DNA from: Mycobacterium sp. KBS0706 | GTDB taxonomy: Bacteria; Pseudomonadota; Alphaproteobacteria; DSM-16000; Inquilinaceae | NCBI RefSeq assembly: GCF_005938675.2 | Contig: NZ_VCCH02000002.1 | Location: 124,001-188,000, forward strand | Direction: 5' to 3' | Length of the DNA stretch: 64,000 bases | Shown here: positions 16,079-39,945 of the stretch, one piece after another | Position numbering within the stretch: the stretch's first letter is position 1 | How the letters are laid out: the number at the start of each line of letters is the position of its first letter | Program-made: the position numbers and the translations under genes | Notes under the pieces: generated by a model | Told to the model about the DNA's origin: nothing | The model's input: the letters and a program-made list of their open reading frames with translations, nothing else | Databases searched by the model: none

Positions 16079-17093
16079 CGCCTTCCTCCAACTCGACGGG
16101 CTGACGCTCGCCTATCACGGCCAGGTCGCGGTCGACCGGCTGACCGTGTCGATCCGGCGGGGTGAGCTGGTGGCGCTGCTCGGCCCCTCCGGCTGCGGCA
16201 AGACCACGACGATGCGCGCCATCGCCGGGCTGATGGCGCCGGCCGGGGGGCGGATCACCCTGGCCGGGCGCGACATCACCCGGGTGCCGGCCAACAGGCG
16301 CGGCGTCGGGCTGGTGTTCCAGTCCTACGCCCTGTTCCCGCATCTGACCGTGGCCGAGAACGTCGCCTTCGGCCTACGCCTGAAGAAGCTGCCGGAGAAG
16401 GAGATCGCCGGCCGGGTCGGTGCGGCGCTGGCAAATGTCGGCCTTTCCGGCTTCGCCGAGCGCCTGCCCAAGGCCCTGTCCGGCGGCCAGCAGCAGCGCG
16501 TCGCCCTGGCCCGGTCGATCGTGGTCGAGCCGCAGCTGCTGCTCCTGGACGAGCCGCTGTCCAACCTCGACGCCCGGCTGCGGTTGGAGATGCGCAGCGA
16601 GCTGAGCCGGCTGCAGCGCGAGCTCGGCATCACCATGATCTACGTCACCCACGACCAGGCCGAGGCGCTGGCCCTGGCCGACCGGATCATCGTCATGCGC
16701 GCCGGCCAGATCGAGCAGATGGGCCGGCCGGACGAGATCTACGAGGCGCCGCGCTCGCCCTTCGTCGCCCGCTTCATGGGCTTCGAGAACACCTTCGCGG
16801 TGGAGCAGGGGCGGTTGGCCACGACGGGGGGCAGCCTGGCACCGGGCTTCGCCCTGCCGGCTTCGGCCAAGGCGCTGGGCTGGCGGCCGCAGGCGGTGGC
16901 GCTGGGCTCCGGCCCGCATCGCGGCCGGGTGCGCGGCGTCTCCTATCTCGGCCAGACCGTCGAATACCTGCTGGAGACGCCGGCCGGGCCGGTCAAGGCC
17001 GAGGTGCCGGCAGCGGTGCCGCGACACGAGGCGGGGGCCGAGATCGCCTTCGACCTGCCGCTGGCGACGGCGGCGGTGATGGAGCGGGCATGA
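16071..17093 (+). CDS. ABC transporter ATPase (PotA type)
   Basis: This importer ATPase has 340 residues. Walker A is GPSGCGKTT (about residues 39-47), the signature is LSGGQQQR, Walker B is LLLLDEPLSNLD and the H-loop is THDQAEAL. A C-terminal TOBE-like domain follows (GWRPQAVALGSGPHRGRVRG). All catalytic motifs are intact. It energises uptake through the two preceding permeases and overlaps the nucleoside hydrolase gene by 4 bp. Confidence 0.95.
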   Translation: MSDAFLQLDGLTLAYHGQVAVDRLTVSIRRGELVALLGPSGCGKTTTMRAIAGLMAPAGGRITLAGRDITRVPANRRGVGLVFQSYALFPHLTVAENVAFGLRLKKLPEKEIAGRVGAALANVGLSGFAERLPKALSGGQQQRVALARSIVVEPQLLLLDEPLSNLDARLRLEMRSELSRLQRELGITMIYVTHDQAEALALADRIIVMRAGQIEQMGRPDEIYEAPRSPFVARFMGFENTFAVEQGRLATTGGSLAPGFALPASAKALGWRPQAVALGSGPHRGRVRGVSYLGQTVEYLLETPAGPVKAEVPAAVPRHEAGAEIAFDLPLATAAVMERA

Positions 17094-18019
17094 TGCGCCG
17101 GGTCTGGATCGACACCGATATGGGCTTCGACGATGTCGTCGCCATCGCCATGGTGGCGGAGGCGGTGGACGTCGCCATCGCCGGCCTGTCGCTGGTCGCC
17201 GGCAATGCCCCGCTCGACCAGGTGGCGCAGAACGCCCGCGACGCGGCGGCGTTCTTCGGCTGGGACGCGCCGATCCATGCCGGCCGCGACCGGCCGCTGC
17301 TCGGCGACCTCGTCACCGCGGCCTATGCCCTCGGCGACGGCGCCATGCCGACGGTCGGGCGCACCCTGCCCGCAGCCGATACGCCGCTGTCCGCAGAGCC
17401 GGCGCTGCCGGCCCTGATCCGGTACCTCGTCGAGGGCGGCTCCGAAATCCTGGCGCTGGGGCCGCTGACCAACATCGCGGCGCTGGTGATCGCCCGGCCG
17501 GACCTAGCCGTGCGGATCCGGCTGGTCTGGATGGGCGGCAGCGCCGGCCCCGGCAACCATACAGCCGTCGCCGAGTTCAACGCCGCGGTCGACCCGGAGG
17601 CGATCCAGGCGGTGATCGATGCCGGGGTGCGCATCGGCATGGTCGGGCTCGACGCCTGCCGGCCGGTGACGGTCTCGGTCGCCGATGCCGACCGGCTGCG
17701 GGCGATCGGCGGCGACCGTGCCGCGGTGCTGGCCGACCTGCTGGAGGGCTATGCCTGCATCGGCCAGGCCGCGCATCCACTCTACGATCCGGTGGCGGCC
17801 GCCGCCTGGATCGATCCGGCGACAGTCGGCTTCCGCCCGGCCCGGCTGGATGCCGAGCTGTCCGGCCGGCTGACCCGCGGCATGACCGTCATCGAATGGC
17901 GGGTGCCGCGCAAGGCCGCCGCCAATGCCGACATCGCCACCGTGCCGGACGCCGAGCGCATCCGGACGATGGCTCTCGGCGCGCTCGAACGCGCCGCCCG
18001 ATCTGGAGGGGCCGGATGA
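17090..18019 (+). CDS. nucleoside hydrolase (IunH family), active-site His replaced
   Basis: This 309-residue enzyme of the inosine-uridine nucleoside N-ribohydrolase family splits nucleosides into base and ribose. The calcium-binding motif is DTDMGFDD (residues 8-15; family DxDPGxDD), and the second metal region is AEFNAAVDPEA. Where the family usually reads HDP near the C-terminal third, this protein has HPLYDPVAA, so the His that protonates the leaving base is replaced by Tyr. A His three residues earlier might compensate, or base specificity may differ. It is coupled to the ATPase gene and lies upstream of an adenine deaminase. Confidence 0.9.
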   Translation: MMRRVWIDTDMGFDDVVAIAMVAEAVDVAIAGLSLVAGNAPLDQVAQNARDAAAFFGWDAPIHAGRDRPLLGDLVTAAYALGDGAMPTVGRTLPAADTPLSAEPALPALIRYLVEGGSEILALGPLTNIAALVIARPDLAVRIRLVWMGGSAGPGNHTAVAEFNAAVDPEAIQAVIDAGVRIGMVGLDACRPVTVSVADADRLRAIGGDRAAVLADLLEGYACIGQAAHPLYDPVAAAAWIDPATVGFRPARLDAELSGRLTRGMTVIEWRVPRKAAANADIATVPDAERIRTMALGALERAARSGGAG

Positions 18020-18090
18020 ACGGAGAAGCCGCCCGGCGCCCTTCTCCTCGGGACGAAGGCACTGACACATCTCCTGGCTCCGCTCCCATT

Positions 18091-18144
18091 GCCTCTCCCG
18101 CTTGCGGGAGAGGTCGGGCTCGCGCAGCGAGACCGGGTGAGGGC
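18091..18144 (+). repeat. palindromic double-hairpin repeat, copy A
   Basis: Stem one is CCTCTCCCGC / GCGGGAGAGG with a two-base loop (18092-18113). Stem two is CTCGC-GCA-GCGAG (18119-18131), followed by CCGGGTGAGGG. The whole is the inverted counterpart of copy B, with a different second stem. This is the structure of REP/BIME-like extragenic elements. Confidence 0.7.
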
Positions 18145-18236
18145 GGCTCGGCCGCGACACCAGGATCAGCGTTTCAGGATGGGGTGGATCATGCACTCGC
18201 TCGTGGCAAAGCTGTGCTCTCGGTGAGGCCGCTATC

Positions 18237-18289
18237 CCCTCACCCGGACATCCTTCGGATGTCCGACCTCTCCCGCAAGCGGGAGAGGC
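18237..18289 (-). repeat. palindromic double-hairpin repeat, copy B
   Basis: This is the inverted copy of the element at 18091-18144. CCCTCACCC is followed by the stem CGGACATCC-TTC-GGATGTCCG (18245-18265) and the shared stem CCTCTCCCGC / GCGGGAGAGG (18267-18288). The variable stem has changed sequence but kept pairing. Confidence 0.7.
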
Positions 18290-18332
18290 AATCTGTTCGC
18301 ATACCTGCGGTCGGTCTCACTGATCGACGCAT

Positions 18333-18371
18333 GAATCCCCCGCCTCCTCGGCGGGAGGGTGAGGGGGATTC
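18333..18371. repeat. hairpin GAATCCCCC/GGGGGATTC before the adenine deaminase gene
   Basis: Nine-base arms pair perfectly and an inner GC-rich region can extend the stem. It lies 30 bp upstream of the adenine deaminase ATG and could modulate its translation or mRNA processing. Confidence 0.5.
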
Positions 18372-18401
18372 GAGCAGAGCCAACCCATCGAAGGTCCAGC
18401 C

Positions 18402-20174
18402 ATGACCCGCGAACCGCACGACCTGGACGATCCCGGCCTGCGCGACCGCGCCGTGCGCGCCGCCCGCGGGCTGGCGCCCTTCGACGTGCTGATCACCGGC
18501 GCCCAACTGGTCGACGTCGCGACCTCGGAGATCCGGGCGGCCGATATCGGGCTGGTCGGGCCGTTGGTCGCCAGCGTCCACGCCCCCGGCAGCCGCGGCG
18601 ATGCAGGCCGGGTGGTCGACGCCGCCGGCCGCTTCGTCGCGCCCGGGCTGATCGACACCCATCTGCACATCGAAAGCTCGATGGTGACGCCGCGGCGCTA
18701 TGCCGAGGTGGTGGTGCCGCAGGGCACGACCACGATCTGCTGGGACCCGCACGAGGTCGGCAACGTCGCCGGCCTGGCGGGGGTGCGCTGGGCGGTCGAG
18801 GCCGGGCAGGGGCTGCCGCTGCGGATCCTGACCCTGGCGCCCTCCTGCGTGCCCTCGGCGCCGGGGCTGGAGGTGGCGGGGGCCGAGTTCGGCGGCGGCG
18901 AGATGGCCGAGATGCTGCGCTGGCCGGAGATCGCCGGCGTCGCCGAGGTGATGAACATGCGCGGCGTGCTGGACCGCAGCGAGCCGATGCAGGGCGTGGT
19001 CGCCGCCGGCCTCGCCAGCGGCAAGCTGGTCTGCGGCCATGCCCGCGGGCTGGAGGGCGCGTCGCTGCAGGGCTTCGCCGCTGCCGGCATCCAGTCCGAC
19101 CACGAGATCACCTCGGGAGACGACCTGCTGGCCAAGCTGCGCGCCGGCTTCACCGTCGAGCTGCGGGGGGCGCACGACTATGTCCTGCCCGGCGCGGTCC
19201 AGGCGCTGGCCACCCTGCCGCATCTGCCGCAGACCCTGACCCTCTGCACCGACGACATCTTCCCGGACGACCTCGTCGCCGTCGGCGGCATCGCCGACGT
19301 GCTGCGGCGGCTGATCCGCTACGGCCTGCGCCCGGTCGACGCGATCCGGGCGGCGACGCTGAACGCGGCGATGCGGCTCGGCCGGCGCGACCTCGGCCTG
19401 GTCGCGCCGGGCCGCCGCGCCGACCTGATCGTGCTCGACGGGCTGGAGACGCTGGGCGTCGAGCGGGTCTTCGCCTCCGGCCGCGAGGTCGCGGCGGCGG
19501 GGCGCCTGACCGCGGGACAACTCGGCCGCGCGGCCGATGCCTTCCGCGACACGGTGAAGGTGCCGCCGCTGACCGCCGACGACTTCGTCCTCCGCCTGCC
19601 GGGGCGCAGCACGGCCGTGGTCAACTCGATCTTCCGGCCGCGCTTCACCGAATGGCGCGACCTCGCGGTCGAGGTGCGGGACGGCGCGGTGGTGTTGCCG
19701 GCTGACCGCATCCTGATGGCGGTGATCCACCGCCACGGCCGGCGTCCGGCGGTGCCGCAGATCGGCATCCTGGATGATTGGGGTCCCTGGCGCGGCGCGC
19801 TGGCCACCACGATCTCTCACGACAGCCACAACCTGACCGTGTTCGGCCGCGACCCGGCCGACATGGCGGCGGCGGCCAATGCGGTGATCGCGGCCGGCGG
19901 CGGCATGGCGGTGGCCGAGCGTGGCGCCGTGACTGCCCTTGTGGCGCTGCCGGTCTGCGGCCTGCTGTCGGACGCGCCGGCGGCGGAGGTGGCGGCGGAT
20001 TTCGCCGCGGTCAAGGCGGCGGCGGACCGGATCGTCGACTGGCAGCCGCCCTACCGCACTTTCAAGGCGGTGGTCGGCGCCAGCCTGGCCTGCAACCCGG
20101 GGCCGCATGTCACCGATCTCGGCCTGACCGACGGCACCACCGGCGAGATCCGGCCGCTCGCGGCCGCGGGCTGA
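18402..20174 (+). CDS. ade: adenine deaminase
   Basis: This 590-residue metal-dependent amidohydrolase deaminates adenine to hypoxanthine plus ammonia. The metal motif THLHIESSM (His87, His89) is the hallmark of Ade rather than of other amidohydrolases, and CWDPHEVGNV and GHARGL follow in order. The C-terminal half carries TTISHDSHNLTVFGRDPADM and the closing LGLTDGTTGEIRPL. The start has AAGG eight bases ahead. Located behind the nucleoside hydrolase, it would process adenine released from imported adenosine, so the operon yields ribose, ammonia and hypoxanthine. Confidence 0.95.
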   Translation: MTREPHDLDDPGLRDRAVRAARGLAPFDVLITGAQLVDVATSEIRAADIGLVGPLVASVHAPGSRGDAGRVVDAAGRFVAPGLIDTHLHIESSMVTPRRYAEVVVPQGTTTICWDPHEVGNVAGLAGVRWAVEAGQGLPLRILTLAPSCVPSAPGLEVAGAEFGGGEMAEMLRWPEIAGVAEVMNMRGVLDRSEPMQGVVAAGLASGKLVCGHARGLEGASLQGFAAAGIQSDHEITSGDDLLAKLRAGFTVELRGAHDYVLPGAVQALATLPHLPQTLTLCTDDIFPDDLVAVGGIADVLRRLIRYGLRPVDAIRAATLNAAMRLGRRDLGLVAPGRRADLIVLDGLETLGVERVFASGREVAAAGRLTAGQLGRAADAFRDTVKVPPLTADDFVLRLPGRSTAVVNSIFRPRFTEWRDLAVEVRDGAVVLPADRILMAVIHRHGRRPAVPQIGILDDWGPWRGALATTISHDSHNLTVFGRDPADMAAAANAVIAAGGGMAVAERGAVTALVALPVCGLLSDAPAAEVAADFAAVKAAADRIVDWQPPYRTFKAVVGASLACNPGPHVTDLGLTDGTTGEIRPLAAAG

Positions 20175-24124: not shown

Positions 24125-24823
24125 TCACCGCCTGCCGATCGTCGTGGACAGCGCCGTGCGGACGATCTGCCAGGCGGCCTCGACCAGCCCGGCGGTGACC
24201 CGGCCGGCGGCCGGGGCGTCGGCACGGCGGATGGCGTCGATCATCTGCTGGTTGGCCTCGATCGCGATCGCGGTCATCTCCGCCGACACGCCATAGGCCA
24301 GATGGCGGTAGCGCAGCGCCGGCTTCTGCACGATGGCCAGCAGGCGCTGCAGCACCGCGTTGCCCGAGGCCTCGTGCAGCGCCTCGGTCAGAGCGACATT
24401 GGCGTCGAAGCAGCGCTCGACCTCGCCGGCCTCCAGCGCCGACCGCATCGCCGCGAGGGCCACCGACAGCTCGCCGGCGACCGCGACCGGATTGGCCGAC
24501 CGGGCGGCGCCTTCGGCCGCCAGCGCCTCCAGCTTCACCCGGCAGGAATAGATCTGGTCGAGATCGGCCAGCGACATCGGCGCCACCCGAACGCCCTGGC
24601 GCGGCCGCCGGATCACCAGCCCGGTGCCCTCCAGCAGCCGCAGCGCCTCGCGCACCGGCGACCGGCTGATGCCGTAGCGCTCGCACAGCTCCTCCTCCAC
24701 CAGCTTGGCGCCGGGGGGCAGCTCGCGCAGGATGATCTTGCGCTCGAGGAAGGCGAGCACCGTCTGCGACAGCACCGGCCGGCGCGGGGTGCCGCTGTCT
24801 TCATCCGGGATGGCGGTCTCCAT
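24125..24823 (-). CDS. GntR-family (FadR/FCD) transcriptional regulator
   Basis: The protein has 232 residues. The N-terminal GntR winged helix (LPPGAKLVEEELCERYGISR, then SPVREALRLLEGTGLV) is followed by an all-helical FCD ligand domain. The usual FCD metal His residues appear substituted: the ...FH... position reads LT in NVALTEALHEASGN, and the late His is Asn in NQQMIDAIRRADA. The sensor may therefore be metal-free. The gene starts 9 bp after the permease gene and is the last gene of the operon. The TGTATACA boxes at 29644-29675 are good candidate operators. Confidence 0.93.
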   Translation of the reverse strand: METAIPDEDSGTPRRPVLSQTVLAFLERKIILRELPPGAKLVEEELCERYGISRSPVREALRLLEGTGLVIRRPRQGVRVAPMSLADLDQIYSCRVKLEALAAEGAARSANPVAVAGELSVALAAMRSALEAGEVERCFDANVALTEALHEASGNAVLQRLLAIVQKPALRYRHLAYGVSAEMTAIAIEANQQMIDAIRRADAPAAGRVTAGLVEAAWQIVRTALSTTIGRR

Positions 24824-24832
24824 GGTCGCGGG

Positions 24833-25624
24833 TCAGAACCTCTGGATCTTGAGGCCGAGGACCTTCTCGGTCACCACCACGACCAGCAGCGTCATGACGA
24901 TGCTGATGGTGGAGACGGCCGCGGCCTCCGGCGTGAAGTTCAGGCGAAGATAATCGAACAGCTGGATCGGCAGGGTCGAAGTTCCGACGTCCTTCAGCAG
25001 GAACGAGATCGCGAAGGTGTCGAAGGAGATGATGAAGGCGAACAGGCAGCCGCCGATCAGCCCCGGCTTGATCAGCGGCAGGGTGATCCGGACGAAGACC
25101 CGCCACGGCCGGGCGCCGAGGCTGCGCGCCGCCAGCTCCCACGACCGGTCGAAGCCCTGCAGCGAGGCCGAGACGTTCATGAACACGAAGGGCAGGGTGA
25201 TCAGCACATGGCCGGTGACCAGCGCCACCAGGTTCCTTGTGCCGATGCCGATGGCGTAGAAGAAGAAGAGGAGGGCGATCGCCGTCAGCACCTCGGGCAG
25301 CAAGAGCGGCGCCAGCACGGCGATGCGGATCGCCTCCTTCGCCCGGCCGGCATGGCGGGCGTGGTACAGCGCGGCGGCGGTGCCGATGACGGCGGAGACC
25401 AGGGTCGCGACGGTCGCGACCTGCAGCGAGGTCCAGATCGCGGTGACGAACACCTCGTTGCCGAAGAACGCCTCGTACCAGCGCAGCGACAGCCCTTGCG
25501 GCGGGAATGCCAGGAAGGCGCCGGCGCTGAAGGAGGCGCCGACGACGACCAGGATCGGCGCCAGCAGGAAGGCGTAGACCAGCCCGCAGAACACCGGGAA
25601 CAGGATCGGGCGTCGTTGCTTCAT
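24833..25624 (-). CDS. ABC transporter permease (PotC type), second importer
   Basis: The protein has 263 residues with about six membrane helices and the EAA loop AARSLGARPWRVFVRITLPL. The frame is open far upstream, but the ATG at 25624 overlaps the preceding permease stop by 4 bp and gives a normal length. It pairs with the permease encoded just upstream. Confidence 0.92.
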   Translation of the reverse strand: MKQRRPILFPVFCGLVYAFLLAPILVVVGASFSAGAFLAFPPQGLSLRWYEAFFGNEVFVTAIWTSLQVATVATLVSAVIGTAAALYHARHAGRAKEAIRIAVLAPLLLPEVLTAIALLFFFYAIGIGTRNLVALVTGHVLITLPFVFMNVSASLQGFDRSWELAARSLGARPWRVFVRITLPLIKPGLIGGCLFAFIISFDTFAISFLLKDVGTSTLPIQLFDYLRLNFTPEAAAVSTISIVMTLLVVVVTEKVLGLKIQRF

Positions 25625-26478
25625 GCTGCCCACCGCATCCGCGTGGCCCGGGCGAACAGGACGACGCACAGTCCGCCGGCGACGCTGAGCATCAGGGCCA
25701 GGGCCGAGCCCAGCGGCCATTGGAACGCGTCGGTCAGCGTGTCGACCACGGTCAGGGTCATGGTCTTCACCCGCATGCCGCCGATCAGCACCGGGGTGAC
25801 ATAGGCGCTGAGCGCCAGCACGAAGACCAGGATGCAGCCCGACTGGATCCCCGGCAGCGCCAGCGGCAGCACGATGCGCCGGAACGCCACCCGCCTGGTG
25901 GCGCCGAGCGACCGTCCCGCCGCCTCCAGCGCCGGGTCGATGGTCTGCAGCGCCGCCATGATCGGCAGGATCATGAAGGGCAGGAAGACATGGGTCAGGG
26001 CGATGACGATGCCGAGCGTGTTGTACATCAGCGGCAGCGGCGCCAGGGTCAGACCGAGCGACCTTGCCGCCTTGTTGAGGACGCCGTTGTTGCCGAGCAG
26101 GATGGTCCAGCCGAAGCTGCGGACCACGATCCCGACCAGCAGCGGCGACAGCACGATGCCGTACAGCACCGGGCGCCAGCGCGACCGGCTGCGGGCCAGC
26201 TGCCAAGCGACCGGGAAGCCGACCAGAAGCGTCGTCCCTGTGGTCAGCAGCGCGATCCACAGCGTGCTGCCCAGCTGGCCCAGATAATAGCCGTCGGTCA
26301 GGGTGCGCTGGTAGTTGTCCAGCGTCAGCCCCGGCCCGTAGGGCGCGCCGGTGGCCGGCGGCCGGAAGCTCATCAGCACGATGTTGAGATAGGGCACCAG
26401 CAGGAACACGCCGAGCAGCACCGCCGCCGGCGCGATCATCAGCCAGGTCCAGGGCAGCCTCTTGCGCCGGGCGGTCAT
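25621..26478 (-). CDS. ABC transporter permease (PotB type), second importer
   Basis: The protein has 285 residues, with a basic N-terminus (MTARRKRLPW), six hydrophobic segments and the EAA loop AGRSLGATRRVAFRRIVLPL. It overlaps the ATPase gene and the next permease by 4 bp each, so the three are translationally coupled. Confidence 0.92.
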   Translation of the reverse strand: MTARRKRLPWTWLMIAPAAVLLGVFLLVPYLNIVLMSFRPPATGAPYGPGLTLDNYQRTLTDGYYLGQLGSTLWIALLTTGTTLLVGFPVAWQLARSRSRWRPVLYGIVLSPLLVGIVVRSFGWTILLGNNGVLNKAARSLGLTLAPLPLMYNTLGIVIALTHVFLPFMILPIMAALQTIDPALEAAGRSLGATRRVAFRRIVLPLALPGIQSGCILVFVLALSAYVTPVLIGGMRVKTMTLTVVDTLTDAFQWPLGSALALMLSVAGGLCVVLFARATRMRWAA

Positions 26479-27536
26479 GACGCCTCCGGGACGACCCAGA
26501 GCGGGGCGGCCGGCGGCCGCACCGCCACGCGCTGCCCCTCGGCGAAGCGGGTCTGGGTCAGGCTGTGGGCCTCGACATCGCTGCCGTCGGGCAGCCGGAT
26601 GCGGTAGTTCACCATGTTGCCGAGATAGTAGCGGCCCTCGACCACGCCTTCTGTCGCCGTGGTGCCGATGCCGGCGGGGGCCAGAGTGATCGCCTCGGGC
26701 CGCAGCAGCGCCCGGACCGAGGCACCCGGCGCGGTGCCGTTCAGCCCGTCCGCCGCGCAGTCGCCGAACACGGTGCGGATCTTCGCGTCGGCGCCGTCGG
26801 CCACGACGATGCCGGGCAGCAGGTTGGCCTGGCCGACGAAGCTCGCCACCCTGGCATCGGCCGGCCGCTCGTAGATCGCCTCGGGCGCGCCGGCCTGGAC
26901 GATGCGGCCGCCGAACATCACCACGACGCGGTCGGACATCGTCATCGCCTCGGCCTGGTCATGGGTGACGTAGATGGTGGTGATGCCGACCCGCCGCTGC
27001 AGGTCGCGGATGAACACCCGCATCTCGTCGCGCAGCCGGGCGTCGAGATTGGCCAGCGGCTCGTCGAGCAGCAGGATGCTGGGCTCGATCACCAGCGCCC
27101 GGGCCAGGGCGACGCGCTGCTGCTGGCCGCCGCTCAGCTCGCGCGGGTAGCGCTCCTCCATCCCGCGCAGCTGCACCATCTCCAGCACCTGGGCGACACG
27201 GGTTGCGATCCCGGCCCGGCCGACCTTGCGCATCTCCAGCCCGAAGGCCAGGTTCCGCGCCACGGTCATGTGCGGGAACAGGGCGTAGGACTGGAACACC
27301 ATGCCGATGTCCCGCCGCTCCGGCGGCAGGGCCGACACGTCGCGGCCGTCGAAGGCGATGCTTCCGTGCTCCGCCTCCTCGAAGCCGGCGATCAGCTTCA
27401 GCGTGGTGGTCTTGCCGCAGCCCGACGGGCCCAGCAGCGAGACGAACTCGCCGCTCGCGATCGACAGCGACAGCCGGTCGACGGCGCGGGCGGCGCCGAA
27501 GCTGCGGGTCAGCTCTGAAATGACGACTTCGGTCAC
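26475..27536 (-). CDS. ABC transporter ATPase (PotA type), second importer
   Basis: The protein has 353 residues, with Walker A GPSGCGKTT, signature LSGGQQQR, Walker B ILLLDEPLANLD and H-loop THDQAEAM. The C-terminal TOBE domain contains ALLRPEAITLAP and YYLGNMVNYRIRLPDGSDVE. No ATG suits the start. The GTG at 27536, which overlaps the binding-protein TGA as GTGA, gives a normal N-terminus (VTEVVISELTRSFG). Confidence 0.93.
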   Translation of the reverse strand: MTEVVISELTRSFGAARAVDRLSLSIASGEFVSLLGPSGCGKTTTLKLIAGFEEAEHGSIAFDGRDVSALPPERRDIGMVFQSYALFPHMTVARNLAFGLEMRKVGRAGIATRVAQVLEMVQLRGMEERYPRELSGGQQQRVALARALVIEPSILLLDEPLANLDARLRDEMRVFIRDLQRRVGITTIYVTHDQAEAMTMSDRVVVMFGGRIVQAGAPEAIYERPADARVASFVGQANLLPGIVVADGADAKIRTVFGDCAADGLNGTAPGASVRALLRPEAITLAPAGIGTTATEGVVEGRYYLGNMVNYRIRLPDGSDVEAHSLTQTRFAEGQRVAVRPPAAPLWVVPEAS

Positions 27537-28570
27537 TGGAAGGTCCGGTTCCAGCGTTCCGTCATCTCGGTGGCATTGGCGTTCACCCAATCCCAGTCCC
27601 AGGCGAGGATCCTGCTCATCTGGTCGCCATAGACCGGCACGTCGGCGCGCAGGTCCTCCGGCACCTCGACCGTGCGGTTGACCGGGGAGACGAAGAACTC
27701 CCGCGCCAGCATCAGCTGCGTCTCCGGCGACAGGATGAAGTCGATGTATTTGTAGGCCAGCTCCCGCGCCGGGGCGTTGGTGCAGATGCTGAAGGTCTGG
27801 TCCCACATCAACAGGCCTTCCTCCGGCACGATGCACTCGACCGGCAGTCCCTGGTGCTTCAGCCGGGCGATCTCGCCGAAATCATAGGGCGCGACCACGA
27901 TCTCGCCGGTCGACATCAGGGTCGACATGTTGAAGTCGGTCTGCAGCACGGGGGCCAGCTTGCCCAGCATCTCATAGGCCTTGTCCAGGTCCTGCGGGCC
28001 GCTGCCATACAGCTTGCCGGTCAGCATGACCATCGCCTTCCCAGCCGAGTTGACGATGTTGTAGAGGCCGATGCGGCCCTGGAACTCCGGGTTGTCCCAC
28101 AGGTCCTTCCAGGATTTCGGCGGGGTCTGCACCAGGTCGGTGCGGTAGCCTAGGCCGAGCGGCGAGATCATGCCGACCGCGGCCCAGCCGTCGCCGGTCT
28201 GGGCGATCGGGTACAGGTCCTTGTAGTGCGGCACCAGCGACAGGTCGAACTTCTCGAAATACCCCTCCTTGCGCAGCAACGAGGCGAAGATCTCGTTCAT
28301 CATCACCATGGAATAGGGCGGCTGGTCCTTGCCGGCCGCCCGCAGGGTCGAGGTGAAGGTGCGGCCGAAGCCGATGTCGAGCTTCGTCTTGGCACCGGTC
28401 GCGGTCTCGAAGGCGGGCACCAGGCTCTTGCGCCAGAACGCCTCCCAGACCCCGCCATAGGTGGTGATCACCAGCTCCTGCGCCGCGGCCGCCAGGGCCG
28501 GGAAACGCAGCATGGCCGGGCCCATCAGGGCCGCGCATGCCATGACAACCTGCCGTCGAGTGGGCTGCAT
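27533..28570 (-). CDS. PotD-type ABC solute-binding protein, second importer
   Basis: The protein has 345 residues. The N-terminus (MQPTRRQVVMACAALMGPAM) has a twin-arginine followed by a hydrophobic stretch ending in LAAAAQE, consistent with Tat or Sec export. The mature part starts LVITTYGGVWEAFWRKSLVP, typical of the spermidine/putrescine-like SBP family. Linkage to an oxygenase and a divergent nucleoside hydrolase suggests that a nucleoside or modified base is carried, but ligand residues could not be judged. AAGGAC precedes the start. Confidence 0.92.
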   Translation of the reverse strand: MQPTRRQVVMACAALMGPAMLRFPALAAAAQELVITTYGGVWEAFWRKSLVPAFETATGAKTKLDIGFGRTFTSTLRAAGKDQPPYSMVMMNEIFASLLRKEGYFEKFDLSLVPHYKDLYPIAQTGDGWAAVGMISPLGLGYRTDLVQTPPKSWKDLWDNPEFQGRIGLYNIVNSAGKAMVMLTGKLYGSGPQDLDKAYEMLGKLAPVLQTDFNMSTLMSTGEIVVAPYDFGEIARLKHQGLPVECIVPEEGLLMWDQTFSICTNAPARELAYKYIDFILSPETQLMLAREFFVSPVNRTVEVPEDLRADVPVYGDQMSRILAWDWDWVNANATEMTERWNRTFQ

Positions 28571-28616
28571 GTCCTTGTCTCCGCTGTTTGTGGACCGCCG
28601 ACCTGGGCGGCGCCTC

Positions 28617-28634
28617 CCCGGGGACCTGTCCCCT
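28617..28634. other. GC-rich hairpin between oxygenase and binding-protein genes
   Basis: GGGGA-CCTG-TCCCC with flanking bases forms a compact stem in the 71-bp gap. Being inside an operon, it could reduce or stabilise transcript downstream of the oxygenase gene. Confidence 0.3.
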
Positions 28635-28641
28635 GGCGTTC

Positions 28642-29619
28642 TCAGGACGCCTTCTTGCGGTACTCGTAGTTCTTGTTGAGCCGATCCAGGAGATAGTCGC
28701 CGTAGCGCACCGGCGGCTGGCGCGGCGCCTCGCCCGGCGCCAGCAGCGCGGCGGGGCAGTCGACCACCGAATCCATCGACGGGTCGTAGAAGAAGGGCTG
28801 CGAATAGCGCTCGCGGCCGCTCAGGTTCAGCACCCGGTGCGGGGTCGAGGCGAAGCGGTCATTCGACCAGCGCGCCAGGATGTCGCCGACATTCATCACG
28901 AAGGTGTTGGGGATCGGCGGCGCTGGGATCCACTCGCCGGCGCGGTTGCGGACCTCGAGCCCGCCGACCGAATCCTGCGCCAGCAGGGTGATGAAGCCGT
29001 AATCGGTGTGCGGGGCCGATCCGAACAGCCCTTCCTCGCGCCGCTGCTCGGGATAGTGCAGCAGGCGCAGGAACAGCGTCGGACGGTCGAAATGCGGGAG
29101 AAAGTAGGTCGGCGGCAGGTCCAGCGCCTCGGCGATTGCCACGGCCATGTCCCGGCCCAGGGCCGACATCGCCCGCATGTAGTCGAGCGCCGCCTGCCGC
29201 AGTTCCGGGATCTCCGCTGGCCACTGGTTCGGGCCCTGCAACGGCTCGCCCAGCGCCGGGTCGTCCTCCGCCAGGTCGTGCATCGCCATCAGGGATTCGC
29301 TCTGGTTCGGCTTGGTGACCGCGGCGACGGAGGAGGTGACGATGGTCGAGGTGCTGAACGGCATATAGCCGCGATGCGCGTCGTTCATGCGGAGGCGCAG
29401 CTTGGTCTCGGCCGGCAGGTCGTGGAACTGCACCGACAGGCGGTGCAGCCGCTCGCCCAGCTCCGGCGGCACGCCGTGATCGGCCAGATAGACGAAGCCG
29501 ATGGTCTCCAGCGTCCGGCGCAGCTCGGCCACCGTGCCGGCGCGGTCTTCCGGCCCGGCACCGCCGCGCAGCGGCGAGACGTCGAGCACCGGGATGTTCG
29601 AGAAGTCTCCCCGACCCAT
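28642..29619 (-). CDS. isopenicillin-N-synthase-like 2-oxoglutarate/Fe(II) oxygenase
   Basis: This soluble non-haem iron oxygenase has 325 residues. The N-terminal DIOX_N-type domain (IPVLDVSP, then TIGFVYLADHGVPPELGERL) is followed by the 2OG-FeII domain. Its iron triad is His204/Asp206 (APHTDYGF) and His261 (STPHRVLN), with the 2-oxoglutarate-binding RYS at 271-273. ATG 29619 has GGGGAG at proper spacing, so the TTG two codons upstream was rejected. It is the first gene of the importer operon and opposite a nucleoside hydrolase. Thymine 7-hydroxylase is a family member, so action on a nucleobase or nucleoside is a reasonable guess. Confidence 0.9.
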   Translation of the reverse strand: MGRGDFSNIPVLDVSPLRGGAGPEDRAGTVAELRRTLETIGFVYLADHGVPPELGERLHRLSVQFHDLPAETKLRLRMNDAHRGYMPFSTSTIVTSSVAAVTKPNQSESLMAMHDLAEDDPALGEPLQGPNQWPAEIPELRQAALDYMRAMSALGRDMAVAIAEALDLPPTYFLPHFDRPTLFLRLLHYPEQRREEGLFGSAPHTDYGFITLLAQDSVGGLEVRNRAGEWIPAPPIPNTFVMNVGDILARWSNDRFASTPHRVLNLSGRERYSQPFFYDPSMDSVVDCPAALLAPGEAPRQPPVRYGDYLLDRLNKNYEYRKKAS

Positions 29620-29643
29620 TCGCAAGCTCCCCTGTTTTTTCTA

Positions 29644-29675
29644 TCTGTATACAGAAACTCATTTCTGTATACATT
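29644..29675. promoter_or_regulatory. paired TGTATACA operators in a divergent promoter
   Basis: TCTGTATACAGA (29644-29655) is a perfect 12-bp palindrome. TCTGTATACATT (29664-29675) repeats its core exactly 20 bp away, about two helical turns. The T-rich surroundings contrast with the GC-rich genes. TGTATACA-type boxes are commonly bound by GntR/FadR-family proteins, and such a gene ends this operon. Both the oxygenase-importer operon and the nucleoside hydrolase would be controlled. Confidence 0.7.
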
Positions 29676-29723
29676 TTTCTGACGAACAGGACCGGCCGCT
29701 TCCAGGCCGGCAGGGAGGCGCGT

Positions 29724-30662
29724 TTGACCGAAGCCATCATCATCGACACCGATCCGGGGCAGGACGACGCCTTCGCCATCCTGCTGGCGCTGGCGTCGCC
29801 GGAGCTCGAGGTCCTCGGCCTCACCACCGTCGCCGGCAACGTCCCGGTCGCGGTCACGGCCGCGAACGCAAGGCGGGTGGTGGAGCTGGCGGGCCGGCCG
29901 GAGGTCCCGGTGCGGGCCGGCTGCGAACGGCCGCTGCTGCGGCCGGCCCGCTTCGCCGAGGAGGTGCACGGCAAGACCGGCCTGGACGGCTGGGACTTCC
30001 CGGCCCCGGCGCGGCCGCCGGAGCCCGGCCATGCGGTCGACTGGATGGTCGAGACGCTGCTCGCCCGGCCCGACGGCGCGACCACCCTGGTACCGGTCGG
30101 ACCGCTGACCAATGTCGCGATGGCGCTGCGCCGCTGCCCGGCGATCGCCCGCAAGATCCGCCGCATCGTGTTGATGGGCGGCGGCTTCTTCCAGGGCGGC
30201 AACATGTCCCCGGCGGCGGAGTTCAACATCCTGGTCGACCCGGACGCCGCCGCCATCGTGTTCGGCGCCGGCATCGACCTCGTCGCTGTGCCGATCGACT
30301 GCACCTATGCGGCGCCGACCCCGGACAGCTGGATCGCCGATCTGGAGGCGCTTGGCACCCGCGTCGGCGCCGCCGGGGCCGGGATGATGCGGTTCTTCCA
30401 GCGCTTCGGGAACGAGAAATATGGCACCGCCACCCGGCCGCTGCACGACGCGCTGGCGGTCGGCTATCTGCTGTGGCCGGAGCTGTTCACCGGGCGGCGC
30501 TGCAATGTCGAGATCGAGACGGCGTCGCCGCTGACCCTCGGCATGACCGTGGTCGACTGGTGGGGCATCTCCGGCCGCCCGGCCAACGCGCTGTGGCTGA
30601 CCGGATGCGACGCGCCCGCCTTCTACGGGCGGATGCTGCAGCGTCTGGCCAAGCTCGACTGA
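29724..30662 (+). CDS. nucleoside hydrolase (IunH family), intact active site
   Basis: This enzyme (312 residues) has the canonical calcium motif DTDPGQDD (residues 8-15). It also has LTTVAGN, VPVGPLTNVA, the metal region AEFNILVDPDA and the catalytic His in TRPLHDALAVGYL. It should hydrolyse the N-glycosidic bond of purine or pyrimidine ribonucleosides in the cytosol. The start is TTG with AGGGAGG eight bases ahead. It is divergent from the oxygenase-importer operon across the TGTATACA boxes, so uptake and cleavage are probably co-regulated. Confidence 0.93.
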   Translation: MTEAIIIDTDPGQDDAFAILLALASPELEVLGLTTVAGNVPVAVTAANARRVVELAGRPEVPVRAGCERPLLRPARFAEEVHGKTGLDGWDFPAPARPPEPGHAVDWMVETLLARPDGATTLVPVGPLTNVAMALRRCPAIARKIRRIVLMGGGFFQGGNMSPAAEFNILVDPDAAAIVFGAGIDLVAVPIDCTYAAPTPDSWIADLEALGTRVGAAGAGMMRFFQRFGNEKYGTATRPLHDALAVGYLLWPELFTGRRCNVEIETASPLTLGMTVVDWWGISGRPANALWLTGCDAPAFYGRMLQRLAKLD

Positions 30663-31610: not shown

Positions 31611-31775
31611 AGCTCGAATAAATGAATTGTCCATGACCATGCGAGGCTGCCTAGCATCGTTTCGGGATCACCGGGCGGGCCAGGCGCCGCCGGACCAAGA
31701 ATTCGAACGCGGGTCCAGGAATTCGTGCCGGAAAACGGCACGCAGCGGGACCTGCGGACATGGGAAGGCTTCACG

Positions 31776-33827
31776 ATGGCTTGGCGCATTGGCGTGGATT
31801 CCGGCGGGACGTTCACCGACGTCTGCCTGTTCGACGATGAGAGCGGGCGGCTCGACGTCTGGAAGGTCTCATCGACCCCCGACGACCCGTCACGCGGCAT
31901 CGTCCAGGGGGTGGAGGAGGGGACGGCAAGGGTCGGCGCCGAGCCGGGGGAGATCGGCTATTTCGGCCACGGCACCACGGTCGGCACCAATGCCCTGATC
32001 CAGCATCGCGGCGTCCGCACCGGCCTCTTGACCACCGACGGCTTCCGCGACCTGCTGGAGATCGGCCGGCAGAAGCGCCCGGACCTCTACGACCTGCAGG
32101 CCGACAAGCCGGAGACGCTGGTCAGCCGCGACCTGCGCATCGACATCCCGGAGCGCATCCGCCACGACGGCTCGGTCGAGACCCCGCTGGACGAGGCGGT
32201 GCTGCGCAAGGCGGTGCGCGAGCTGCGCGCGGCCGGGGTCGAAGCGGTGGCGGTCAGCTTCCTCTATGGCTTCGTCCGCAGCGAGCATGAGGAGACGGCG
32301 CTGCGCATCCTGGCCGAGGAGTTCCCGGAGGCCTTCGCCTGCGCCTCGCACGGCGTGGCGCCGGAGTTCCGCGAGTATGAGCGGGTCTCGACCACCGTGG
32401 TGAACGCCTATCTCGGCCCGGTGATGCGCGGCTATATCGAGCGGCTGGGCCAGCGGCTGTCCGAGATCGGGGTCAAGGCGGCGCCGCGGCTGACCCAGTC
32501 GAATGGCGGCGTCATCAGCTTCGAGACGGCGGCGCGGCTGCCGGTCCGCACCGTCCTGTCCGGCCCCAGCACCGGCGTGGTCGCGGCCCAGGCGATCGGG
32601 GCGGTCGCCGGCTTCCCCGACCTGATCACCTTCGACATGGGCGGCACCAGCACCGATGTCGCGCTGTTGGCCGGCGGCCAATGCCGCCTGGCCGGCGAGG
32701 CGGTGGTGCATGGCTACCCGATCAAGGCCCCGATGCTCGACATTCACACGGTCGGGGCGGGCGGGGGCTCGATCGCCACTGTCGACAGCGGCGGGCTGCT
32801 GAAGGTCGGACCGCGCAGCGCTGGCGCCTGGCCCGGGCCGGTCTGCTACGGCCACGGCAATGGGGAGCCAACGGTGACCGACGCCAATGTCGTGCTGCAG
32901 ACACTGAACCCGGTGTCGCTGCTGGGCGGCCGCATGGCCGTTCGGCGCGACCTGGCCGAGGCCGCGATCGGCCGGCTGGCGCAGCAGCTGGGCCTCGGGC
33001 TGATGGAGACGGCGCAGGGTATTCTCACCGTCGTCACCGCCAACATGGCCAAGGCGATCCGCGTCATCAGCGTGCAGCGCGGCCACGACCCGCGCGACTA
33101 CACGCTGATGGCCTTCGGCGGCGCCGGCCCGCTGCACGCCGCCCGCCTGGCCAAGGAGCTCGACATCAGCCGCATCCTGGTGCCGCAGAATCCGGGCATC
33201 CTCTGCGCCATGGGCCTGCTGCTGACCGACCTGCGCGCCGATTTCGCCGCCACCCGGCTGACCGCGCTGGACCTGGCGGCGCTGCCCGCGGTCGAGGCCG
33301 CCTTCGACGGGCTGCTGGTCCGGGCCGAGGAATGGTTCGCGCAGGAGGAGGTGCCGCAGGGCGCGCGGCGCGTCACCCGTACCGTCGACATGCGCTATGC
33401 CGGTCAGAACTACGAGCTGCCGGTGGCGCTGCCGGACGGGCCGGTGACGCCGGCGACGCTGGAGGCGCTGGCCGCCGGATTCGCCCGGGCGCATGAGCGG
33501 CAATATGGCTTCGTCGCCGCCGGCGAGCCGGTGCAGTTGGTTACCTTCCGGGTCGAGGCCGCGGGCGTTGTCACCAAGGCCAGCTTCCGGCCGCAGCCCG
33601 ATGCCGGGCCGGAGGCTGGGCACGCCGTCACCGGTTCGCGCGAGGTCTGGCTGCCGGAGGCGGGGGGCTGGGTCTCCTGCCCGGTCTATGACCGCGCCCA
33701 ACTCAAGCCCGGCAACCGCATCGCCGGCCCGGCCGTGGTCGAGCAGATGGACAGCACCACCGTTATCCTCCCCGGCATGACGGCCCATGTCGAACCCTAT
33801 CTCAACCTGGTCCTGGATGTCCGATGA
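31776..33827 (+). CDS. hyuA: hydantoinase/oxoprolinase subunit A
   Basis: The protein has 683 residues. The N-terminal ATP-binding motif DSGGTFTDVCLFDD (about residues 8-21) and the second DMGGTSTDVALLAGG (about 288-302) are the acetate-kinase/actin-like motifs of the family. GHGTTVGTNALIQ is also typical. Members use ATP to open hydantoins, 5-oxoproline, acetone-type or lactam substrates together with subunit B. ATG 31776 has GGAAGG eight bases before it; an upstream in-frame start was rejected as too long. It overlaps hyuB by 4 bp. Confidence 0.93.
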   Translation: MAWRIGVDSGGTFTDVCLFDDESGRLDVWKVSSTPDDPSRGIVQGVEEGTARVGAEPGEIGYFGHGTTVGTNALIQHRGVRTGLLTTDGFRDLLEIGRQKRPDLYDLQADKPETLVSRDLRIDIPERIRHDGSVETPLDEAVLRKAVRELRAAGVEAVAVSFLYGFVRSEHEETALRILAEEFPEAFACASHGVAPEFREYERVSTTVVNAYLGPVMRGYIERLGQRLSEIGVKAAPRLTQSNGGVISFETAARLPVRTVLSGPSTGVVAAQAIGAVAGFPDLITFDMGGTSTDVALLAGGQCRLAGEAVVHGYPIKAPMLDIHTVGAGGGSIATVDSGGLLKVGPRSAGAWPGPVCYGHGNGEPTVTDANVVLQTLNPVSLLGGRMAVRRDLAEAAIGRLAQQLGLGLMETAQGILTVVTANMAKAIRVISVQRGHDPRDYTLMAFGGAGPLHAARLAKELDISRILVPQNPGILCAMGLLLTDLRADFAATRLTALDLAALPAVEAAFDGLLVRAEEWFAQEEVPQGARRVTRTVDMRYAGQNYELPVALPDGPVTPATLEALAAGFARAHERQYGFVAAGEPVQLVTFRVEAAGVVTKASFRPQPDAGPEAGHAVTGSREVWLPEAGGWVSCPVYDRAQLKPGNRIAGPAVVEQMDSTTVILPGMTAHVEPYLNLVLDVR

Positions 33828-35479
33828 GCGTCGCCGTCCCGCAGCGCCGCGAGGCCGCGCTCGACCCGATCACGGTCGAGGTGATCGGCAGCGCCTTCGC
33901 CTCGATCGCGGAGGAGATGGGGGAGGCGCTGGTCCGGGCCAGCTACTCGACCAACATCAAGGAGCGGCGCGACTGCTCCACCGCGCTGTTCGACATGGCC
34001 GGCAACACCCTGTGCCAGGCCGAGCACATCCCGATGCATCTCGGCAGCTTCATCGGCATCATCCCGCATATCATGAGGCGCCATCCGCTGGACCGGATGC
34101 GGCCGGGCGACGTGTTCATCGGCAACGACGCCTATGAGGGCGGCGGCACGCATCTGCCCGACATCGTGCTGGCGGAGCCGATCTTCGTCGACGGGCGGAT
34201 GGTGGCCTGGGCGGTCAACACCGCCCACCACGCCGACTTCGCCGACCGCGGCCACGCCCATATCTACCAGGAGGGGATCCGGATCCCGCCGATCCGGCTG
34301 TACCGCGCCGGCGAGCTGCAGGCCGATGTGCAGGAGCTGGTACTGCTGAACTGCCAGGTCCCGCGGGAGCGGCTGTCCGATCTCCGTGCCCAGATGGCGG
34401 CCAACCGCCTGGGCGTGCAGCGGATGACGGCGCTGTGCGCCAAATACGGCGCCGACGTCGTGCTCGCGGCCGGCGCCGCGCTGCAGGATTATGCCGAGCG
34501 CAAGATGCGCGCCGGCATCGCCGCGATCCCGGACGGCACCTACCGTTTCAACGATCGTTTCGACAATCCGGAGCTGGACGGCGAGCTCGACTTCGCTGTC
34601 GAGATCACCGTGGCCGGCGACGAGATGCGGCTGCATTTCGACAGCCCGCCGCAGGTCCGGGGTGGCCTCAATGTCGTCTACACGGCGCTGCTGTCGACGG
34701 TCTATTACGCGGTGAAGACGGTGGTCGACCCGACCATCCTGCCCAATGCCGGGCTGGCGCGGCCGCTGACGGTCACGGCGCCGGAGGGCACGGTGCTGAA
34801 CTGCATCCATCCGGCGGCGGTCAACGGCCGGGTGGCGACCTGCCAGCGCATCGCCGACCTGATCCACGGCGCCCTGGCCCAGGCGGTGCCGGAGCGGTTG
34901 ACCGCGGCCAGCAACGGCTCCTGCGCCTCCGCCACCTTCATGGGGCGCGACGCCAAGACCGGCGGCCTGTGGGTCTATCTCGAGACCATCGGCGGCGGCA
35001 GCGGCGCCCGCGCCGGCAAGGACGGGCTCGACGGCGTCCATGTCCACATGACCAACACCTCCAACCTGCCGGCCGAGGCGCTGGAGCTGGAATACCCGCT
35101 GACCCTGCTGCGCTACGAGCTGGTCGACGGCTCCGGCGGTCCTGGCGCGCAGCGGGGCGGCATGGGGCTGCGCCGGGTCTACCGGGCCGAGGCCGACTGC
35201 CGGGTGCATATCGACGGGTCGCGCCTGCGCTCCGCCCCGTGGGGGCTGGAGGGCGGGCTGGAGGGCGGCCGCGGCGGCTTCGTCTTCGGTCCCGGCGTCG
35301 CCCCGTTCGACCACGGCAATGGCGACCTGAAGCGCGGCGACGTGATCGAGATCGTGACGCCGGGCGCCGGCGGCTATGGCCCGCCATCCGGGCGCGCGGC
35401 CGACGCCGTGCAGCGCGATCTGGCGGAAGGACGGATCGACCGGGAGACGGCGCAGAGGGTCTACGGCGCCGTGCTCTGA
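33824..35479 (+). CDS. hyuB: hydantoinase/oxoprolinase subunit B
   Basis: The 551-residue length is normal for HyuB. Characteristic blocks are STNIKERRDCSTALFD, then HIPMHLGSF, then GDVFIGNDAYEGGGTHLPDI and HHADFADRGH, followed by the late GGSGARAGKDGLDGVH and NTSNLPAEALELEYPL. With HyuA it forms an ATP-dependent amidohydrolase, which may act on N-methylhydantoin, 5-oxoproline or a cyclic lactam. The binding-protein gene downstream suggests that the substrate is imported. Confidence 0.93.
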   Translation: MSVAVPQRREAALDPITVEVIGSAFASIAEEMGEALVRASYSTNIKERRDCSTALFDMAGNTLCQAEHIPMHLGSFIGIIPHIMRRHPLDRMRPGDVFIGNDAYEGGGTHLPDIVLAEPIFVDGRMVAWAVNTAHHADFADRGHAHIYQEGIRIPPIRLYRAGELQADVQELVLLNCQVPRERLSDLRAQMAANRLGVQRMTALCAKYGADVVLAAGAALQDYAERKMRAGIAAIPDGTYRFNDRFDNPELDGELDFAVEITVAGDEMRLHFDSPPQVRGGLNVVYTALLSTVYYAVKTVVDPTILPNAGLARPLTVTAPEGTVLNCIHPAAVNGRVATCQRIADLIHGALAQAVPERLTAASNGSCASATFMGRDAKTGGLWVYLETIGGGSGARAGKDGLDGVHVHMTNTSNLPAEALELEYPLTLLRYELVDGSGGPGAQRGGMGLRRVYRAEADCRVHIDGSRLRSAPWGLEGGLEGGRGGFVFGPGVAPFDHGNGDLKRGDVIEIVTPGAGGYGPPSGRAADAVQRDLAEGRIDRETAQRVYGAVL

Positions 35480-37167: not shown

Positions 37168-37295
37168 AACCGGGCTTGTCTGATCGCGTGCTACCGCACC
37201 AAGTTCTGGTGAAAAAGAAAGCATGACGTGCCTGCGATGGGCATTCTGCGTTCTTTTGATCGGAATTGTGTCAGTTCTTCCGGAACAGGAAGGAA

Positions 37296-38612
37296 ATGAT
37301 ACACAAGACATCGCTCGAACCGTCGCTGTGGTACGCCACGGCGGCCCCCGCGCCGGAGACGACGGCGCTGGACGGCACGATAGACGCGCCGGTCTGCGTG
37401 ATCGGCGCCGGCTACACCGGCCTGTCCACCGCGCTGCATCTCGGCGAGCGCGGTGTCGGCACGGTGGTGCTGGAGGCGGAGCAGATCGGTCATGGCGGCT
37501 CCGGCCGCAATGCCGGCCATTGCACCCCGACCTTCCATGTCCACGAGATCGCGACCGTCCGGCGCATCCTGGGCGAGCCTTTCGCCACGCGGCTGATCGA
37601 GCGCCAGACCAACGCCGCCAACCTGGTCTTCGACATCATCCGCCGCTACGGCATCGACTGCGAGGCGGTGCAGACCGGCTACATCCACGCCGCCCACGCC
37701 ACTGCCGCCCTGGCGAAGCTGGAGCGGCGCTGCCGGGAATATGCGGCTGTCGGCAAGGCCACGAGGATGCTCGACAGCGACGAGGCCCAGCGCCTGACCG
37801 GGTCGCCGCGCTTCTGCGGCGGCTGGATCCATCCGGAGGGCGGGCACCTCAACCCGCTCGGCTATGCCCGCGGCCTGGCCCGGGCGGCGATCTCGCGCGG
37901 CGCCCGGGTCTTCACCCGCTCGCCGGTCACCGCGATCCGGCCGCAGGGCGCGCGCTGGCGGGTGGAGACGCCGGCCGGCGCCGTCCTCGCCGACAAGGTG
38001 GTGTGCGGCACCGGCGCCTATACCGACGGCTACTGGCCGGGGCTGGAGCAGAGCTTCGCCCGCCTCGGCGTCGCCGTGCTGGCCACCCAGCCGCTCAGCG
38101 ACAATGTCCGCCGGACGATCGCGCCAGACAACAACACCGTGGTCGACAGCCGGCGCGACATCTCGATCTGGAAATACGACAAGGACGGACGACTGGTGAC
38201 CTCGCTGTTTGTCGAGGGACGGCGCGGCACGGACCCCGCCTACACCACGGCGCTGATGCGGCGGAAGCTGCAATGGCTGCTGCCGCAGCTCGGCGATGTC
38301 GAGTTCCAGTACAGCTGGACCGGCGCGATCGACATGCAGCCACGCACCTTCCCGCGGCTCTACGGCCTGGCGCCCGGCGTGGTCGCCTCGCTCGGCTATT
38401 CCGGCCGCGGCGTGCCGACCGGCACGATGATGGGCACGGTGCTGGCGGAATGGGCGACGGGAACACCGCCGCAGGACCTGGCGCTGCCGATCGAAAGGCT
38501 GCAGCGCACGCCCTTCTACATGAGCTTCATGCCGCGCGTCATGCTGGCCTGGTCGCGGATCCGCGACCAGCGCTCCGCCCGGCGCGACGGCCTCGACCCG
38601 CCGCCCTTCTGA
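37296..38612 (+). CDS. FAD-dependent oxidoreductase, gamma-glutamylputrescine-oxidase-like
   Basis: The protein has 438 residues. The dinucleotide-binding motif is CVIGAGYTGLSTALHL (about residues 32-47), followed by HGGSGRNAGHCTP, typical of the PuuB/ordL group. The C-terminal flavin motif LGYSGRGVPTGTMMG follows the same pattern. It should oxidise a secondary amine or N-substituted amino acid with release of an aldehyde. The ATG at 37296 is preceded by AGGAAGGAA. It lies between the hydantoinase and transporter genes, so it probably acts on the product of ring opening or an imported amine. Confidence 0.9.
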   Translation: MIHKTSLEPSLWYATAAPAPETTALDGTIDAPVCVIGAGYTGLSTALHLGERGVGTVVLEAEQIGHGGSGRNAGHCTPTFHVHEIATVRRILGEPFATRLIERQTNAANLVFDIIRRYGIDCEAVQTGYIHAAHATAALAKLERRCREYAAVGKATRMLDSDEAQRLTGSPRFCGGWIHPEGGHLNPLGYARGLARAAISRGARVFTRSPVTAIRPQGARWRVETPAGAVLADKVVCGTGAYTDGYWPGLEQSFARLGVAVLATQPLSDNVRRTIAPDNNTVVDSRRDISIWKYDKDGRLVTSLFVEGRRGTDPAYTTALMRRKLQWLLPQLGDVEFQYSWTGAIDMQPRTFPRLYGLAPGVVASLGYSGRGVPTGTMMGTVLAEWATGTPPQDLALPIERLQRTPFYMSFMPRVMLAWSRIRDQRSARRDGLDPPPF

Positions 38613-38660
38613 TCATGTGGAACCCTGGCTTGACCCACCTCACCGAACCCAAGGACGGCC

Positions 38661-39191: not shown

Positions 39192-39215
39192 GCGGGCGGG
39201 GTGGGAGGCATCGCC

Positions 39216-39908: not shown

Positions 39909-39945
39909 GCCCGATGCGTTCGATCGTCATGCGGGGAGGGCGCTG

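Follow-up and report, generated by a model that had tools for sequence, protein, structure and literature searches.

Several described systems resemble parts of the locus studied here. Among pyrimidine-specific nucleoside hydrolases, RihB has Gln227 and Tyr231 on helix alpha-9, which tune base specificity, with Gln227 contacting the base; RihA carries a Lys in the same lid, yet its substrates are ordinary pyrimidine nucleosides, as described in the accessible part of the source (PMC2898832). PotD, the binding protein of the PotABCD polyamine importer, contacts polyamines through Glu36, Glu171 and Asp257 (PMC4096761, available sections). In thymine 7-hydroxylase, Asn87 binds O2 of thymine and the N294A change leaves activity unchanged, according to the available portion of PMC4787775. 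The bacterial 2-oxoglutarate (2OG) oxygenase FJS and human PHYHD1 demethylate free 2'-O-methylnucleosides, and the fate of such nucleosides after release from RNA is largely unexplored, as far as the accessible text of PMC12709175 goes. We analyzed a 64-kb stretch of DNA (hereafter, the window) from an 8.97-Mb genome, and focused on a seven-gene cassette at positions 24125-30662 that encodes a nucleoside hydrolase (NH), a 2OG-Fe(II) oxygenase (OXY), a four-part importer and a GntR-family regulator. With somewhat better than even confidence, we propose that the cassette serves the inducible uptake and breakdown of a modified ribonucleoside, and that NH and OXY belong to the same pathway. A search of the open-access literature found no description of the seven-gene set, which agrees with a preliminary description of this DNA, although the open-access scope makes the absence weak.

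All seven open reading frames are intact and lie at the positions given in the preliminary description. The minus strand carries, in order, OXY (28642-29625), a PotD-like solute-binding protein (27533-28570), a PotA-type importer ATPase (26475-27536), a PotB-type permease (25621-26478), a PotC-type permease (24833-25624) and, as the last gene of the operon, the GntR-family regulator (24125-24823). NH (29724-30662) lies on the plus strand and faces OXY. The intergenic gaps along the coordinates from the regulator to NH are 9, -4, -4, -4, 71 and 98 bp. Pfam matches were DIOX_N and 2OG-FeII_Oxy for OXY, an oxygenase of the isopenicillin-N-synthase/thymine-hydroxylase/ethylene-forming fold; solute-binding protein families for the binding protein; ABC_tran and TOBE_2 for the ATPase; BPD_transp_1 for each permease; and IU_nuc_hydro (329 bits) for NH. 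The PotABCD-type importer of the preliminary description was recovered; the top NCBIfam models for the permeases, PotB (163.7 bits) and PotC (163 bits), scored under their cut-offs of 348 and 326. From ribosome-site spacing judged by eye, OXY probably starts at the ATG at 29619 and not at the TTG at 29625. The cassette is 94-98% identical in Inquilinus limosus DSM 16000, and we therefore consider the host to be an Inquilinus relative.

We examined the neighborhoods of 84 OXY homologues, 80 from a scan of named genomes with a ten-OXY alignment (the best 80 of 195 confirmed OXY relatives) and four from plasmids. NH faces OXY in 66 of these loci, including all 56 with an OXY identity of at least 58.96%; among the 28 loci below that value, 10 have NH facing OXY and 18 do not. 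The NH-linked loci take two forms. In type A (22 of 66), OXY is followed by PotDABC, with GntR in addition. Nineteen of the 22 satisfied our completeness rule, and in all of these but L049 (18 of 19) the regulator gene follows the importer genes; the three outside the rule are L034, at a contig edge, L039, whose later genes were not found, and L051, whose Pot genes lie upstream. Type A occurs in Inquilinus, many Rhodobacterales, Jiella, Methylocapsa, Komagataeibacter and a Thioclava plasmid, the last with the complete seven-gene order. In type B (44 of 66), the genes after OXY encode a binding protein of family 3 together with a permease and an ATPase of amino-acid type, and a TetR gene adjoins NH in 42 of the 44 loci. 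By our grouping, 26 type-B hosts are Mesorhizobium, and the rest include Nitratireductor, Kaistia, Celeribacter, Pseudosulfitobacter and others.

Because NH faces OXY so consistently, and because the pair persists when one importer-regulator set is exchanged for another, we propose that both enzymes serve one pathway. The alternative that NH and OXY are unrelated steps under one convenient regulated promoter appears very improbable to us. It would account for the OXY-importer clusters that lack NH and for NH commonly occurring without OXY (NH in 40 of 398 phylum genomes at E<=1e-95, OXY in 6 of 398 at E<=1e-90), but not for the survival of the pair when both importer and regulator change, or for a cassette-specific NH clade with base-lid residues of its own. 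With the own genome counted in every OXY sample, OXY was likewise rare in the class (4 of 385 genomes, same threshold) and was present in 4 of 6 genomes of the genus (E<=1e-80). We conclude that coupling of NH and OXY is well supported by gene context, and we leave the substrate assignment broad.

The preliminary description had called the hydrolase divergent. NH keeps the full catalytic set (DTDPGxDD, N39, H82, N160, E166, N168, H241 and D242) and, by reading, starts directly at the catalytic motif without a leader. The DTDPGxDD calcium site, N39, N160, E166, N168, H241 and D242 were invariant in 46 aligned cassette NHs and across the 47 plus 19 rows of the comparison below. The intact catalytic residues rule out a degenerate hydrolase. 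NCBIfam models for UriH, RihA, RihC and ribosylpyrimidine nucleosidase scored 274, 273, 264 and 236 bits, under their cut-offs of 450, 433, 382 and 459. In a tree of 47 cassette NHs (the window, 45 loci and L126) and 21 paralogues, which have no adjacent OXY match at our threshold, the cassette NHs formed one side of a branch with support of 97/93. NH is thus divergent in forming its own clade and canonical in its catalytic residues. Given this tree and the genome counts above, we consider the cassette NH a branch of a common family. One paralogue, 57% identical, lies beside an alcohol-dehydrogenase-like gene (recognized by eye) in L120 at 8360-10598, and is likely a housekeeping counterpart.

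We compared the 47 cassette NHs with 19 sister paralogues, dropping L115 and L116 as distant, and found 14 differing positions by our rule, one of which is just a gap. Two of them fall in the segment preceding H241: position 229 is G in all 47 cassette NHs and D in all 19 paralogues, and position 238 is R in all 47 and G or A in all 19. In the alignment, NH positions 229 and 233 correspond to RihB Gln227 and Tyr231, and position 238 is Gly in RihB and Ala in RihA. From these residues, G229 and R238 might leave space beside the base and place a positive charge there, a weak indication that would fit a base bearing an acidic group.

As the preliminary description held, OXY has an intact iron triad (H206, D208 and H263). 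The triad and the 2OG residues R273/S275 were invariant in 62 aligned OXYs, and together with the predicted fold they are consistent with 2OG oxygenase chemistry. We built a tree from these 62 sequences (the window and 61 of the 80 scan loci, alignment A5) and five own-genome paralogues. Each type formed one clade with support of 100/99, with 21 rows in type A and 25 in type B; the NH-linked rows need two changes, and a single clade was not rejected (p-AU 0.0805).

The preliminary description suggested a pyrimidine or a modified nucleoside such as a methylated base as the substrate, which OXY, acting like thymine hydroxylase, would help to salvage from thymidine, thymine or nucleosides of 5-methylcytosine. 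OXY does retain counterparts (R187, Y209 and F279) of thymine 7-hydroxylase R190, Y217 and F292, and with them the base-holding aromatics. Asn87 and Asn294 are absent, however: Asn87, the contact to O2 of thymine, is replaced by H84 (Phe in type B), and Asn294 by D281. In addition, in overall fold OXY is about equally close to TraH, SpoC and ethylene-forming enzymes, and nucleoside hydrolases favor ribonucleosides over deoxyribonucleosides. We therefore regard thymine salvage as unlikely. The broader claim, that the cassette imports and oxidizes a nucleoside, is likely as a class of explanation, whereas a pyrimidine or methylated base is just one idea among several.

In favor of a nucleoside-type substrate, some OXY relatives without NH also lie beside genes of a base-metabolism type, as judged by Pfam families, with all specific NCBIfam names under their cut-offs. 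In L110-L112 these neighbors encode a PnrA-type binding protein and a hydrolase of the isochorismatase family; in L093 the neighbor is a deaminase-type amidohydrolase, and in L022 a PuuE-like deacetylase. The L110-L112 loci, from Burkholderiales, have OXY-PotABCD; besides the PnrA-type protein and the isochorismatase-family hydrolase they contain ATP-binding cassette transporter parts and a second oxygenase, each scored in one locus. On a Roseomonas mucosa plasmid (L013, 11190-13875), GntR-OXY has insertion-sequence transposases for neighbors, as well as another, shorter OXY gene, and NH was not found at this locus.

The importer is built like PotABCD, but its binding protein has Ala44, Ser175 and Gln258 where PotD has Glu36, Glu171 and Asp257. 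Across 26 rows, which comprise 25 of 27 hits and the window, position 44 was K in 19, A in 2, T in 2 and Q, R and D in 1 each (the D in L106, which lacks NH); position 175 was S in 23 and T in 3, and position 258 was Q in all 26. With the amine contacts of PotD replaced, polyamine uptake appears unlikely. Asp230, Glu233, Asn92 and Asn174 are invariant and may form a new ligand site. In type B, the binding protein retains S..TxxR and Asp positions, which we take to be the motif that holds the alpha-carboxylate and alpha-amine in amino-acid binders.

This motif would suit a substrate that is a non-nucleoside amino acid or amine conjugate, with NH cutting another ribosyl bond or acting on a different compound. 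So would the accessory genes. A FAD (flavin adenine dinucleotide) oxidoreductase of the sarcosine/N-methyl-amino-acid-oxidase type (under the cut-off) lies between OXY and the binding protein in 7 type-B loci, a methionine-gamma-lyase-like gene (389 bits, cut-off 550) ends 6 type-B loci, and a 2-hydroxyacid dehydrogenase follows GntR in 6 type-A loci. A TauD-like oxygenase and a class II aldolase are present in addition in L049 and L051. These genes hint at an amine or amino-acid part in the substrate, each in a minority of loci. NH, on the other hand, retains the residues for catalysis and ribose contact of a nucleoside hydrolase, by roles that are in part presumed, and we consider a non-nucleoside substrate possible but rather improbable. 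The gamma-lyase-like gene also raised S-adenosylhomocysteine or S-adenosylmethionine as the substrate, which we consider unlikely because NH keeps N160 and E166, presumably contacts of a free 5'-OH. The expanded cassettes of L049 and L051 also contain a second isopenicillin-N-synthase-like oxygenase and a large additional gene that looks like a TonB receptor.

The control region between NH and OXY likewise differs between the two forms. The preliminary description placed two GntR-type boxes in a shared control region, and the 98-bp gap does contain a perfect inverted repeat at 29646-29673, with arms at 29646-29657 and 29662-29673 that are 100% complementary and comprise two TGTATACA boxes. No further TGTATACA occurs in the window. 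Of the 23 type-A NH-OXY regions (22 loci plus the window), 21 contain GTATAC, versus 0.32 expected from shuffles and a maximum of 3 regions in any of 300 shuffles, and TGTATACA is present in 17, versus 0.03 expected. In the 487,338 bases of the type-A loci and the window, all 20 copies of TGTATACA fall within NH-OXY regions. The type-A box mostly ends 17-41 bases ahead of the aligned OXY start, with an extra copy in L010 at 88, and it is absent from the NH-OXY regions of L049 and L051. Shuffles and conservation together rule out a chance occurrence. The 44 type-B regions contain no TGTATACA box; 43 of them contain TACAGTACTGTA, which appeared in none of 100 shuffles and in none of the 23 type-A regions. 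Regulator and operator thus changed along with the importer, and the NH-OXY pair was retained. The regulator contains both a GntR domain (66.1 bits) and an FCD domain (59.6 bits), and the repeat is probably a GntR operator common to the divergent genes. In 18 GntR rows, the FCD metal-ligand motif, as we presume it to be, seemingly misses its usual His, and we draw no conclusion from this.

These results suggest the following model. GntR would bind the paired boxes and block the divergent promoters until the substrate arrives. The PotD-like protein would catch the nucleoside outside the cell, and PotABC would import it. In the cytoplasm NH, given its catalytic residues, would cut the N-glycosidic bond to release ribose and the base, and OXY with Fe(II), O2 and 2-oxoglutarate might then hydroxylate the freed base or oxidatively remove a substituent. 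General base and sugar metabolism would take the remainder, if the steps run in this order.

There are weak hints, at the level of residues and gene families, that the base carries a carboxylate or amino-acid group. A more specific idea, which we hold only tentatively, is that the cassette feeds on hypermodified nucleosides derived from transfer RNA or plants, with a carboxylate or amino-acid side chain on the base (for example, acp3U or carboxymethylaminomethyl-uridine). The R238/G229 lid would accept the base, OXY would clip the side chain, and in some genomes the FAD oxidase, gamma-lyase or 2-hydroxyacid dehydrogenase would finish the amino-acid part. A modification on the ribose was also considered, in which OXY demethylates a 2'-O-methylnucleoside before NH cuts it. 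Nucleoside hydrolases as a rule require a free 2'-OH, so NH would need the hydroxyl that OXY frees, and FJS and PHYHD1 provide a precedent for the demethylation. Those two enzymes belong to the phytanoyl-CoA family PF05721, however, and named hydrolases cleave 2'-O-methylnucleosides directly, according to the accessible part of PMC12709175, whereas OXY matched PF03171 and PF14226 alone (E<=0.001). This alternative also leaves the type-B amino-acid-type importer unexplained, and we consider it improbable.

Several observations weigh against uptake and breakdown of a modified ribonucleoside. The loci are not independent, with 26 of 44 type-B loci being Mesorhizobium, so our counts measure conservation and not numbers of events; similarly, the correlation of NH and OXY distances (r 0.96, 44 rows) is mostly a product of shared descent. 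An amino-acid-type importer, as in type B, is unusual for a nucleoside. R238 need not imply an acidic base, because RihA with its lid Lys cleaves ordinary pyrimidine nucleosides. None of the mapped OXY pocket residues separates NH-linked from NH-less rows, and the pocket therefore does not single out a nucleobase. Residue 84 of OXY is His in type A and in NH-less rows and Phe in type B, and the two types also differ at NH 80, 90, 231 and 233, so they may differ in substrate. Finally, the OXY family is broad, because in L096 (1792-3237) one relative is directly followed by a gene scoring above the ectoine-synthase model and another, of 38% identity, lies in an Azospirillum histidine-utilization region. 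A gene that looks ectoine-synthase-like also follows an OXY relative in L092 (7129-8566).

Elsewhere in the window, a plus-strand FAD-dependent oxidoreductase of the DAO family (39946-41274), 9.3 kb from NH, is 56% identical to the type-B cassette gene and is a possible accessory; L027 has another relative (57%). The surrounding 37266-41274 region encodes a MarR-type regulator and a short-chain dehydrogenase along with two FAD oxidoreductases, the first of which has its gene immediately after NH in L027, on the NH strand and about 390 bp away. A hydantoinase A/B pair (31770-35479) adjoins the cassette, and Hyu-like genes lie near the NH-less OXY clusters of L093 and L102 and the NH-linked L036, L046 and L073. 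A second cluster at 12447-20174 comprises a LacI-type regulator and a Pot-like importer (binding protein, PotA-like ATPase and two permeases); it also contains a distant nucleoside hydrolase at 17090-18019 and, at 18402-20174, an adenine-deaminase-like gene. This cluster suggests that Pot-type importers go with nucleosides in this host. We rejected adenine as the freed base because the deaminase-like gene, 4 kb away, belongs with the second hydrolase and importer, and because pyrimidine-specific enzymes are the closest to the cassette NH.

If the hypermodified-nucleoside idea is correct, the cassette would give bacteria a salvage route dedicated to such compounds. More generally, this conserved cassette, which combines an importer and an oxygenase with a re-tooled nucleoside hydrolase, offers a testable case of what becomes of modified nucleosides in Alphaproteobacteria that live in soil, with plants or in the sea, and could give a substrate to one branch of the bacterial isopenicillin-N-synthase-like oxygenases. 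Comparison with the known systems places the cassette as follows. Neurospora thymine 7-hydroxylase (PDB 5c3p-5c3s) shares about 35% identity with OXY, which does not keep its two Asn residues, and we know of no NH partner in the fungal system. OXY resembles the ethylene-forming, TraH and SpoC 2OG oxygenases in overall fold, the fold alone being compared. FJS and PHYHD1 are likewise 2OG oxygenases that act on free modified nucleosides, but they belong to another Pfam family and have no dedicated importer or NH partner described in the accessible part of PMC12709175. The type-A importer shares the four-part architecture of PotABCD and differs in a binding protein without the three amine-contacting acids. 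The pyrimidine-specific hydrolases 6ba0, RihB and RihA match NH at 264, 227 and 223-224 bits and share its catalytic and ribose residues, whereas NH differs from them in its base-lid G229 and R238, its oxygenase and importer partners, and its NCBIfam scores below the cut-offs.

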